Source of the DNA: Acidobacteriaceae bacterium
Lineage (GTDB): Bacteria > Acidobacteriota > Terriglobia > Terriglobales > Acidobacteriaceae
Direction of reading: 5' to 3'
DNA: 64,000 nt
Assembly (NCBI GenBank): GCA_003134995.1
Contig: PLDC01000029.1
Location: 62,001 to 126,000, forward strand
Both the position numbers and the translations under genes were made by a program. Shown one piece after another: positions 4 through 38,967 of this stretch; position 1 is the stretch's first letter, and the number at the start of each line of letters is the position of its first letter. The notes beneath the pieces are model-generated. The model made no database searches. It was not told where the DNA came from and saw only the letters and a list, made by a program, of their open reading frames with translations.

Positions 4-162
4 AAAACAAAACGCCCCAGACTCATTCGAGTCGTGGGACGTATGTCGATCAGCCCTCCCCCAAGTGCTGCTCAATTAGGAGACTAAACTTAAGCCGCGT
101 ATTGGTAAATGGCCAGTTCGGGCCATTGCTTTCACCTAAGTAACCCACAATGGTAACCTGCG
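4..162 (-). ncRNA. Copy A of a two-copy putative structured RNA element ending in a terminator-like hairpin
   Basis: Reverse complement matches 36873-37019. The 85-nt core (4-88) is about 81/85 identical to copy B and ends CGACTCGAATGAGTCTGGGGCG-TTTTGTTTT. Confidence 0.65.
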
Positions 163-302: not shown

Positions 303-836
303 ATGAAAATTTTCTCCCTGCTTCTCGCGATTTTGCTGTTTGCTTCACTCTCTGCCATTGCTGCCGATCAGCCTCAGCCTCCCGCCGCGGGCGCGCAAGC
401 CCCGGCTTTCTCGTTGCCCAGTCAGGAAGGCACACAGGTTTCTCTCGATCAATATAAAGGGAAGTGGGTTGTGCTTTATTTCTATCCCAAGGATTTCACT
501 TCCGGCTGCACGATTGAAGCGCACAACTTTCAGCGTGACATCGACAAGTACACGCAGAAGAACGCGGTGATTCTCGGCGTCAGCGTCGACAATGTCGATT
601 CGCACAAGGGTTTCTGCACGAAAGAAGGATTGAACTTTAAATTACTCGCCGATCCCGATCATGAGGTCGTCCAACAGTACGGTTCGATCATGGAATACAA
701 CGGAATGACACTGGCCGCACGCAATACGTTCCTGATCGATCCGTCTGGTGTGATCAGGAAGGTTTATCTGAAGGTGAGCCCGCAAGGCCACAGCGACGAA
801 GTGCTGGCCGATCTGCAGCAACTGCAAGCGAAGTAA
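303..836 (+). CDS. Secreted thioredoxin-dependent peroxiredoxin (Bcp/AhpC-TSA family)
   Basis: Signal peptide MKIFSLLLAILLFASLSAIAA, then AFSLPSQEGTQVSLDQYKGKWVVLYFYPKDFTSGCTIEA; internal ATG at 303 chosen. Confidence 0.9.
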   Translation: MKIFSLLLAILLFASLSAIAADQPQPPAAGAQAPAFSLPSQEGTQVSLDQYKGKWVVLYFYPKDFTSGCTIEAHNFQRDIDKYTQKNAVILGVSVDNVDSHKGFCTKEGLNFKLLADPDHEVVQQYGSIMEYNGMTLAARNTFLIDPSGVIRKVYLKVSPQGHSDEVLADLQQLQAK

Positions 837-36049: not shown

Positions 36050-36778
36050 ATGTCGAGCACTGCGAAGGTTTCGCCCAAGTTCGAACTCTCTCCGTCGGCA
36101 GCGAAACTGCGCTTGCTGAAAAAGCTGCGCTGCACGCTGCGTTACGAAAAAAACGCCTGGGCGAGCGGCGCTGTGCTGGTCGCCGGCGTGGATGAAGTTG
36201 GCCGCGGATCGCTGTTCGGGCCCGTGGTGGCAGCGGCTGTGATACTTGAGCGCGGGTATCGCGTTCGCGGACTGCGCGATTCCAAGCTGCTGTTGCCGGA
36301 ACGGCGCGAACTGCTTGCTCCGCGCATTCGCGAACATGCTGTTGCCTGGGCGGTTGCGGCCGTTGATGCGGCGCGCATTGACCAGATCAACATCTACCAG
36401 GCTTCGCGACTGGCTATGCGCGAAGCTGTTATGCGGCTTGCGCCTGCCGCCGATCATCTCTTGATCGACGCTGTGCGGCTTGACTGCGAAGTGCCGCAGA
36501 AAGCCATTATTCATGGCGACGCGCTTTCTGCGTCGATTGCGGCGGCTTCGATTCTGGCCAAAGTTGAGCGCGACCGCATGATGTGCGAATGGGATGCGGT
36601 CTTTCCCGAATACGGCCTGGCATCGCATAAGGGTTACAGCACGCCACAACATTTGGCTGCTTTAGAGAAATACGGTCCGACGCCGCTGCATCGTCAGTCG
36701 TTCGCTCCGGTGTGGAGCAGTCCGGTTGAGCAGGACGTGTTCGAGTTTGACTCGCCTATAGAGCTTCCAGGCGCTTAG
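36050..36778 (+). CDS. rnhB: Ribonuclease HII
   Basis: VAGVDEVGRGSLFGPVVAAAVIL...GDALSASIAAASILAKVERDRMMCEWDAVFPEYGLASHKGYSTPQHLAALEKYGPTPLHRQSF. Confidence 0.96.
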   Translation: MSSTAKVSPKFELSPSAAKLRLLKKLRCTLRYEKNAWASGAVLVAGVDEVGRGSLFGPVVAAAVILERGYRVRGLRDSKLLLPERRELLAPRIREHAVAWAVAAVDAARIDQINIYQASRLAMREAVMRLAPAADHLLIDAVRLDCEVPQKAIIHGDALSASIAAASILAKVERDRMMCEWDAVFPEYGLASHKGYSTPQHLAALEKYGPTPLHRQSFAPVWSSPVEQDVFEFDSPIELPGA

Positions 36779-36872: not shown

Positions 36873-37019
36873 TGCCGGTTACCTTCGTGGATGGTAATAG
36901 CCCCGATGAGCCATTTACCAAACTGCGGGCTCGGTTTAGTCTCCTAATTGAGCAGCACTTGGGGGAGGGCTGATCAACTTACGTCCCACGACTCTAACGA
37001 GTCTGGGGCGTTTTGTTTT
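36873..37019 (+). ncRNA. Copy B of the two-copy putative structured RNA element, ending in a terminator-like hairpin
   Basis: Core 36935-37019 matches copy A. GGTTACC ... GGTAA ... TTTACC pairing elements, then CGACTCTAACGAGTCTGGGGCG-TTTTGTTTT. Confidence 0.7.
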
Positions 37020-37172
37020 GGGCGCTAATATTTATTGCGCGATTTATTTACATCGGGGTATCTGATCGATCTGTTTCGTCAGGGATGCTCCCGGTCTGTA
37101 CCCACCCTTTGGGTACCCCTCCCCACCCCCCTCGATATCTGGAATCATCGAGTTAGACATGTTTTGGCCCGC

Positions 37173-37227
37173 AAAATCTAGGGCCTAAAGAACTTAGATA
37201 CTAAAATATAGACAGCAAAGGACTTAA
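37173..37227. repeat. Degenerate 30-bp tandem (2 units)
   Basis: AAAATCTAGGGCCTAAAGAACTTAG then AAAATATAGACAGCAAAGGACTTAA, 30 bp apart. Confidence 0.4.
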
Positions 37228-37476
37228 TGGCGGGACGGCTGGGCGTTTGCCCGACTGTCACGGCCTCCATCATGATTGCGCAAGTTCGATGTGCGGCGCA
37301 AGGTCAGATGTCACAATGGGGCTGTGGAAATCTTTGTGAGTTTAGATCCCGCAGTCTGGGGTGAGCGCGCAATTTCTTTCACGATTCCGCAGGCGGGCGA
37401 TGCGGGATTATGATGGGCGGTGTTTTCCATCCGGAGGGTAGGACCTTACCTTCGGGCCGAACCCTCGGAGGTAGTT

Positions 37477-38967
37477 GTGAATAGCCAGCGGTATGGTTTG
37501 TTCAACTTTATTTGCCGCATTCTCAAGTCGATTGTCGCATTGACAGCATTAACAGCCAGCCTGCTGGTCGGTGCTTTTGGCCAGAATAATCCGGTGCCGC
37601 AGGTTGTAGGGCCGCCGCATCCGCAGGCGGTAGCGCCGGGCGGCGCAGATTTCACACTGAAAGTTTATGGCGCAAACTTTGTCCCGGGTGCGGTGGTGAA
37701 TTGGAACCGCCTGCCAAGGGCCACGACCTATATTTCAGGCCACGAAGTGGACGCCACGATTCTCGCTAGCGACATTGTTAGTAACACCGCGGGCTACATT
37801 ACAGTGACGAATCCGCCGCCCGGTGGAGGGCTTTCCAGCGCGAGTTGGAGCCTTGTGGAAGTGCATGACCCTACTGCGACGATCGTTCCCGGTGAGCCGA
37901 CCCGGAATTTACTCGGGGGCACCGAAGACCACGTTCTCCTTATAGCTGACTTCACCAATGACGGCATACTGGACCTCGCAACGGGCTCCGGTACGATTCG
38001 TTTGGAACTCGGCAACGGCGATGGAACTTTCAATTTCGTCTCAAACATGACTTATTCCGCCCTGTCGCCATTTGGGGACGACAGCATGGCCTACGGCGAC
38101 TTCAACGGTGACGGTAATGTGGATTTGGCCTACGCTGCTGGTTGGGGCAGCCGAAACAACTCCGTATTCGGAATGGCAGTGAACTTCGGCGACGGTAAAG
38201 GCACGTTCGTCCCCGGTTGGCAGTATAGGGAGAGCGGTGAGGCCGGTTCCATCGGTGTTGTAGTTGCGGGCGACCTGAACCGCGACGGCAGTTTAGACCT
38301 AGTGGCGCAGGGGCCACCTGCATTGGCGATCTTCTTAGGCAACGGGGACGGCAGCTTCGCGGAGTCAGTGACGTATCCGAACGACCTGGGAGGAGAAACT
38401 CTGCTCGCTGATTTCAACGGCGACGGCATTCTGGATCTGCTGATACAGCAACAGCGAGCTTCCACATTCGTCAATCCGATCACCATAGCCTTTGGCAACG
38501 GCGATGGCACTTTTAAGACTCCGGTAACCATAGCAACGCCTAGCGCAGGGTGCGGTTTTGGGCCAAACGTTCTGGTAACCGATTTCAATGGAGATGGCAA
38601 TTTGGACATTGCCTTTTGTACGGCGACCAGCATCGGGGTACAGATAGGCAATGGGGATGGTACGTTCCAGAAGCCAACCTATTACGACGTGAGTTCGCCT
38701 GATTACGGGTTCAGCTTTGCGGTAGGTGATTTTAATTCCGATGGGCATACCGACCTGCTTGTCTCCGCCTTTGACCAGGGTTTTCTGGAAATCCTGCTGG
38801 GAAATGGCGACGGGACGTTTCAGCCCAGATCGCAGGTCAAGCTACCCGGCCCTCCGCGCCAAAGTGGTGAAGAGGGTATCGGGACGGGCGATTTTAACTC
38901 GGACGGCCTGTTGGACTTTGTGTTTCAGTTAGACGCTACCGGCTACGGAGTGTATCTCCAGCAGTAG
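37477..38967 (+). CDS. Secreted IPT/TIG-like + FG-GAP/VCBS repeat beta-propeller protein
   Basis: Six G-[ND]-G-[DK]-G-[TS]-F motifs alternating with DFNGDG.LD motifs; ORF opens at 37420. Confidence 0.88.
   Translation: MNSQRYGLFNFICRILKSIVALTALTASLLVGAFGQNNPVPQVVGPPHPQAVAPGGADFTLKVYGANFVPGAVVNWNRLPRATTYISGHEVDATILASDIVSNTAGYITVTNPPPGGGLSSASWSLVEVHDPTATIVPGEPTRNLLGGTEDHVLLIADFTNDGILDLATGSGTIRLELGNGDGTFNFVSNMTYSALSPFGDDSMAYGDFNGDGNVDLAYAAGWGSRNNSVFGMAVNFGDGKGTFVPGWQYRESGEAGSIGVVVAGDLNRDGSLDLVAQGPPALAIFLGNGDGSFAESVTYPNDLGGETLLADFNGDGILDLLIQQQRASTFVNPITIAFGNGDGTFKTPVTIATPSAGCGFGPNVLVTDFNGDGNLDIAFCTATSIGVQIGNGDGTFQKPTYYDVSSPDYGFSFAVGDFNSDGHTDLLVSAFDQGFLEILLGNGDGTFQPRSQVKLPGPPRQSGEEGIGTGDFNSDGLLDFVFQLDATGYGVYLQQ

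Follow-up and report, generated by a model that had tools for sequence, protein, structure and literature searches.

A repeated family of predicted short intergenic RNA genes in Acidobacteriota, probably of regulatory function

The window analyzed here, a stretch of 64,000 nucleotides of acidobacterial DNA (contig PLDC01000029.1, positions 62,001 to 126,000), contains two copies of a short intergenic element. Copy A lies at the very start of the window on the minus strand, and copy B lies on the plus strand between two protein-coding genes. The features of both loci, with the grounds for each assignment, are as follows:

4..73, minus strand: copy A, predicted sRNA transcript of 70 nt, +1 at position 73 (covariance model match of 93.9 bits)
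81..86, minus strand: copy A, predicted -10 box TAGTCT (TAnnnT count; logo)
104..109, minus strand: copy A, predicted -35 box TTTACC (logo)
110..125, minus strand: copy A, operator-like dyad TGGCCC-N4-TGGCCA (dyad complementarity)
303..836, plus strand: AhpC/TSA peroxiredoxin gene, divergent from copy A (Pfam PF00578, E=5.6e-41)
36050..36778, plus strand: gene upstream of copy B (homologs in relatives), which we take to encode ribonuclease HII (rnhB)
36877..36883, plus strand: copy B, upstream GGTTACC box resembling the ancestral GATTACC boxes, of putative promoter function
36898..36913, plus strand: copy B, operator-like dyad TAGCCC-N4-GAGCCA (consensus TGGCAC-N4-GNGCCA; dyad complementarity)
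36914..36919, plus strand: copy B, predicted -35 box TTTACC with a 17-nt spacer to the -10 box (logo)
36937..36942, plus strand: copy B, predicted -10 box TAGTCT (TAnnnT in 69/70 copies; logo)
36950..37019, plus strand: copy B, predicted sRNA transcript of 70 nt, +1 at G36950 (covariance model match of 93.8 bits; conservation jump at +1)
36950..36975, plus strand: copy B, hairpin 1 (GAGCAGCACUUGGGGGAGGGCUGAUC) with a G-only loop (folds and covariation)
36981..37019, plus strand: copy B, intrinsic terminator hairpin and U-rich tail (folds and covariation)
37420..38967, plus strand: FG-GAP repeat protein gene downstream of copy B (Pfam PF13517)

An earlier sequence-only reading had described two similar stretches (complement of 4-162, and 36873-37019) sharing an 85-nt core. 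Both are present as claimed, and the cores of A and B indeed differ at four positions, two of them within the terminator loop (GAAT/TAAC). In the host genome (5.6 Mb) blastn with copy B recovered copy A at E=9e-39, along with three further copies, and chance is excluded as the source of the similarity. As judged from the sequences, A and B are probably two genes of a small RNA of approximately 70 nt, each with its own promoter and terminator. Comparison with rnhB relatives places the host genome close to Candidatus Sulfotelmatobacter (Acidobacteriota, Terriglobales).

The 5' end of the putative transcript was located from conservation. An iterated profile gathered 71 distinct copies from the genus, which were aligned without gaps and anchored on GAGCAG. 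Information content in these copies is below 1.4 bits at all upstream positions, reaches 2.0 bits exactly at G+1, and stays near 2 bits after +1 through GAGCAG......GGGGGAGGGCTG. Upstream, TAnnnT starts at -13 or -12 in 69 of 70 genus copies, against a background of 2% for two-offset slots lying farther upstream. It is preceded at a fixed spacing of 17 nt by a TTTACC-like -35 box, whose first T is present in all 69 copies anchored on TAnnnT. A dyad, TGGCAC-N4-GNGCCA, abuts the -35 box; it is 70% complementary, versus 36% at the next-best centre, and is centred 31.5 nt upstream of the start of the -10 box. The predicted promoter is hence of sigma70-type geometry, with an operator-like dyad at about -44. 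Because the spacer is free in sequence and fixed in length, as in DNA and not in an RNA stem, the variable 5' half is best read as promoter and operator DNA. The sequence-only reading had assigned a structured 5' half to an RNA of about 150 nt; its "pairing segments" correspond to the upstream DNA dyad, and conservation together with promoter geometry reduces the conserved unit to about 70 nt starting at GAGCAG. A sigma54 promoter, for which TGGCAC might pass as the -24 element, was rejected: the spacing to GC is one base short, TTGC is absent, and the ancestral copies have no TGGCAC.

The ancestral-type copies carry the same transcript behind unrelated upstream boxes. They keep TAnnnT 6-9 nt before +1 in 31 of 40 cases, and their promoters comprise GATTACC repeats about 11-12 bp apart and TTACCTAAG.TT, ahead of a TTTACA/TTGCAA -35 box and TAnnnT; GGTTACC is retained further upstream in copies A and B. 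As only the transcript is common to both promoter types, they place the 5' end of the RNA independently. With a predicted promoter of its own at a fixed distance from a conserved 5' end, the element has the layout of an independently transcribed intergenic sRNA.

Taken alone, the transcripts fold at z-scores of -3.6 to -5.8 into two hairpins. Hairpin 1 starts at the first base (GAGCAG...CUGAUC) and has an all-G loop; in distant members its stem has 10 bp and its loop is GGGGG, and the G-loop is unpaired in five of five folds. It is followed by the terminator, ACGUCCC...GGGGCGU and then UUUUGUUUU. The sequence-only reading had looked to covariation among homologs for support, and this was found in an alignment of 51 members with the two-hairpin structure: 90.2% of the cells pair, and two-sided changes occur at 16 of 22 pairs (5 of 9 in hairpin 1, 11 of 13 in the terminator). 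None of 500 shuffles reached the observed covariation values, and slid structures pair at 45-52%, a control that somewhat favours the tested structure, since some of the aligned sequences were already known when it was drawn. Compensatory changes in hairpin 1 include GAGCAG/CUGAUC, GGGCAG/CUGCUC, CGGCAG/CUGCCG, and AAGCAG/CUGCUU, while UGGGG(G)AGGG barely varies over the family alignment. The element ends in an intrinsic terminator with a covarying stem. Of the non-coding RNA family with a terminator originally proposed, the RNA itself is supported by two covarying hairpins, wide homologs and the lack of an Rfam match, whereas its length and 5' anatomy had to be revised.

The distribution of the RNA was analyzed at several depths, all family-genome counts being hand tallies from the search tables. 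In a first sample of relatives blastn matched 35 of 61 genomes, all of them among the 37 genomes of the host's own genus (35/37, host genome included), with one to eight copies per matching genome. A genus-only element, as suggested by this search, was rejected when covariance models exposed it as a limit of blastn sensitivity. A model built from the genus copies (R1) detected the RNA in 162 of 298 genomes, representing 49 of 70 genera of the order, and, with laxer filters, seven copies in the host genome. A second model (R2), built from 51 diverse members and used in a class-wide search, detected it in 98 of 110 sampled genomes of the host family (~89%), including complete single-contig genomes, and in only 4 of about 289 other genomes of the class (best match in genome G508 at 7.6e-8, the other three at 3e-4 to 1e-3). 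In a phylum search, none of about 352 genomes outside the host family matched. Other genera mostly have one copy per genome, genus g1 and some others up to 15. Tandem copies lie 160-310 nt apart (three in G022:C48, three in G034:C626, two in G282:C116), and those whose upstream sequence was read each have their own promoter-like boxes and terminator. A decayed copy in the host genome (C10:98471-98526, minus strand; L005 1501-1560), with a broken hairpin-1 core and little but the terminator recognizable, is apparently a pseudogene.

In the distant loci the RNA has a recurrent position. The thioredoxin gene trxA adjoins it in 42 of 70 such loci, downstream and on the same strand in about 40, and a GHMP kinase gene (homoserine-kinase-like) lies upstream in many. 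Expanded copies recur downstream of a nicotinate phosphoribosyltransferase gene (11 loci) or of a sugar transporter gene; others precede a xylose-isomerase-like gene or neighbour cupin or FG-GAP genes. FG-GAP genes were observed downstream both of copy B and of nicotinate phosphoribosyltransferase-linked copies (L026, L019, L030, L033, L056, L071). One host-genome copy, on C23, faces a FUR-family gene; together with trxA and the AhpC/TSA peroxiredoxin gene beside copy A this hints, in three places only, at a redox link.

Directly 3' of copy B (37060-37338) we also observed a dispersed repeat of about 260 bp, with at least ten copies in the host genome (72-88% identity) and many in other genomes of the genus. 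A C-tract interrupted by a single T (CCCCTCCCC) is retained in nearly all aligned repeat copies. It is the complement of the sRNA loop GGGGAGGG, a match that may be accidental or may mark a sponge or a target.

Taken together, we consider it likely that the element is an independently transcribed, genome-repeated intergenic sRNA gene whose product would act by base pairing in trans. Transcription would start at GAGCAG from a sigma70-type promoter (TTTACC-N17-TAnnnT) that lies under an operator-like dyad, and the RNA of about 70 nt would fold into a G-looped hairpin with an intrinsic terminator behind it. The gene would descend from a family-conserved single-copy gene between the GHMP kinase gene and trxA, and would have multiplied in the host genus under diverged upstream boxes, in the manner of sibling sRNAs. 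Acting in trans, probably with Hfq, the RNA would use the exposed loop of hairpin 1 (GGGG or GGGGG) to pair with C-rich sites in mRNAs. Its paralogs may pass different signals to a single common regulon, possibly redox- or metabolism-linked. By its kind and context, trans-acting base pairing is most likely the mode of action.

Hfq is encoded in all 19 genomes tested; the short U-tail (UUUUGUUUU) is weak for canonical Hfq binding. The host genome has three Hfq-family matches, one canonical and two divergent (C16:76768, C29:142771, C23:411736), and three per genome were also observed in most sampled genomes of the host family. The search for targets gave the following picture. First, trxA was not supported as a pairing target, its leaders being no better than shuffled ones (mean z of -0.17 over 40 loci). 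Second, the perfect 10-nt complement CCCTCCCCCA has 15 matches in the host genome, five of them the sRNA genes, versus 7 for the control, and fewer than the control in G138, so that no consistent enrichment is seen. Third, a regulon search with the ancestral -35 box returned five matches in five genomes, four of them at sRNA genes; as this box occurs almost only at the sRNA gene, no shared regulon is visible. Finally, the computed duplex energy is -11.7 kcal/mol with the 16S rRNA 3' end (standard sequence) and -19.0 kcal/mol with the C-tract of the neighbouring repeat, both being values without a null comparison.

A more specific, and rather unlikely, proposal is that the invariant homopolymeric G loop on its stem pairs with C-tracts, including that of the repeat (CCCCTCCCC, a possible sponge), or mimics a Shine-Dalgarno sequence and occupies the 16S anti-Shine-Dalgarno. 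The seeds of sRNAs are usually C-rich and aimed at Shine-Dalgarno sequences; if the proposal is true, a G-loop sRNA family would follow a rule unlike these.

The trans-acting RNA might instead titrate a protein in a Csr/Rsm-like manner, the invariant G-loop hairpin being the protein-binding site. The nearly invariant hairpin sequence and the short, multicopy RNA would suit this; CsrA, however, was found in none of the 14 family genomes tested, and although another protein could take its place, we hold titration to be unlikely.

A cis-acting attenuator or leader, whose hairpin and terminator would control read-through into the downstream gene (trxA in the ancestral locus), appears quite improbable. 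Such a terminator-coupled cis-element had been offered earlier as an alternative to a free RNA, and both the terminator and the same-strand trxA of about 40 of the 70 distant loci speak for it. Yet in 32 of 40 loci the stretch that separates terminator and trxA contains a conserved promoter-like TGCGACTTT...GCATCTAT, versus 7 of 40 for the upstream control region, which suggests that RNA and trxA probably form separate units. At other sites a different gene or none follows downstream, and no conserved anti-terminator pairing was seen in the element. A conserved trxA promoter-like motif, TTGCGACTTT...GCATCTAT, was observed between sRNA terminator and trxA at L196 (1567-1685) and in further trxA-linked loci.

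It is very improbable that the element is a dispersed repeat of DNA or a mobile element, of the REP or MITE type, and not a functional RNA. Several copies per genome at different sites, some in tandem, speak for one, and the rnhB loci of relatives with closely related rnhB have no copy, so that the place of copy B is a recent gain or loss. Against this stand the single-copy syntenic ortholog across the family, the compensatory changes and the fixed promoter geometry; no transposase-like neighbours were noticed among the recurrent neighbour clusters, no exact core was found in viral contigs, and no plasmid matched. A small coding gene is scarcely credible, for although one frame (SSTWGRAD...ESGAFCF) is open through A and B, albeit without a start codon, copies vary from 68 to 75 nt with single-base indels in the terminator loop, changes follow base pairing and not codons, and no start codon is conserved.

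We conclude that this is probably a real and new sRNA family of a known kind, and probably one of regulators. A survey of 2022 counted no more than four sRNA families annotated for Acidobacteria (PMC9029176), and the literature searched, in partial coverage, contained no description of this RNA. Its interest lies in the family-wide conservation, within a phylum that has received little study, and in the unusual G-only loop, and it would open post-transcriptional regulation in a dominant soil phylum. Species with a single copy allow a clean deletion of the RNA gene and thus offer a ready experimental system, while the expansion in a soil and peat genus provides a natural set of paralogs whose promoters have diverged.

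At the gathering threshold of Rfam 15, neither the window nor the element in 20 loci of distant members gave a match; at E<=10 only chance hits appeared around copy B, and at E<=1 none fell on the element in ten loci. 6S RNA (RF00013, ~180 nt) was rejected, as the element does not match it and 6S sits separately in L192 and L191, two loci of genus g35 in which it was observed about 1.2 kb or less from an sRNA copy (L192 328-518; L191 2603-2793). Csr/Rsm-type RNAs (CsrB, RsmZ) resemble the element in having GGA in a hairpin loop and sibling copies, but here there is one GGA per RNA and the CsrA gene is lacking in the sampled family genomes. The CCUCCUCCC-motif ("cuckoo") sRNAs are associated with stress. 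These RNAs of Alphaproteobacteria (CcsR/NfeR1-type) are likewise short stem-loops, often multicopy, with an invariant motif (PMC10746234, PMC3927594), but their motif is C-rich whereas that of the present RNA is G-rich (GGGGGAGGG), and no Rfam match connects the two. Acido-1 (RF01686) and Acido-Lenti-1 (RF01687), also non-coding RNA motifs of Acidobacteria (PMC2864571) and the first comparisons suggested by the sequence-only reading, have no covariance model match around copy B (gathering threshold and E<=10) or in distant members.

Closer likenesses are found elsewhere. FopS of Bacteroides thetaiotaomicron, deposited in Rfam according to its paper, is an RNA of ~65-70 nt, mostly intergenic, with many paralogs (14), sigma promoters of its own and an intrinsic terminator (PMC11697453); it belongs to another phylum and has a single-stranded 5' seed before its terminator, whereas the conserved part here is a G-looped hairpin. 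Sibling sRNAs of Proteobacteria and others (Qrr, PrrF, OmrA/B, csRNAs) are near-identical transcripts, distal or in tandem, some of them under diverged promoters (PMC4211561); no Rfam model of any such family matches, and the likeness is one of analogy. As far as Rfam tells none of these RNAs is a homolog, and it is by analogy that sibling sRNAs and FopS appear nearest in behaviour to the family described here.
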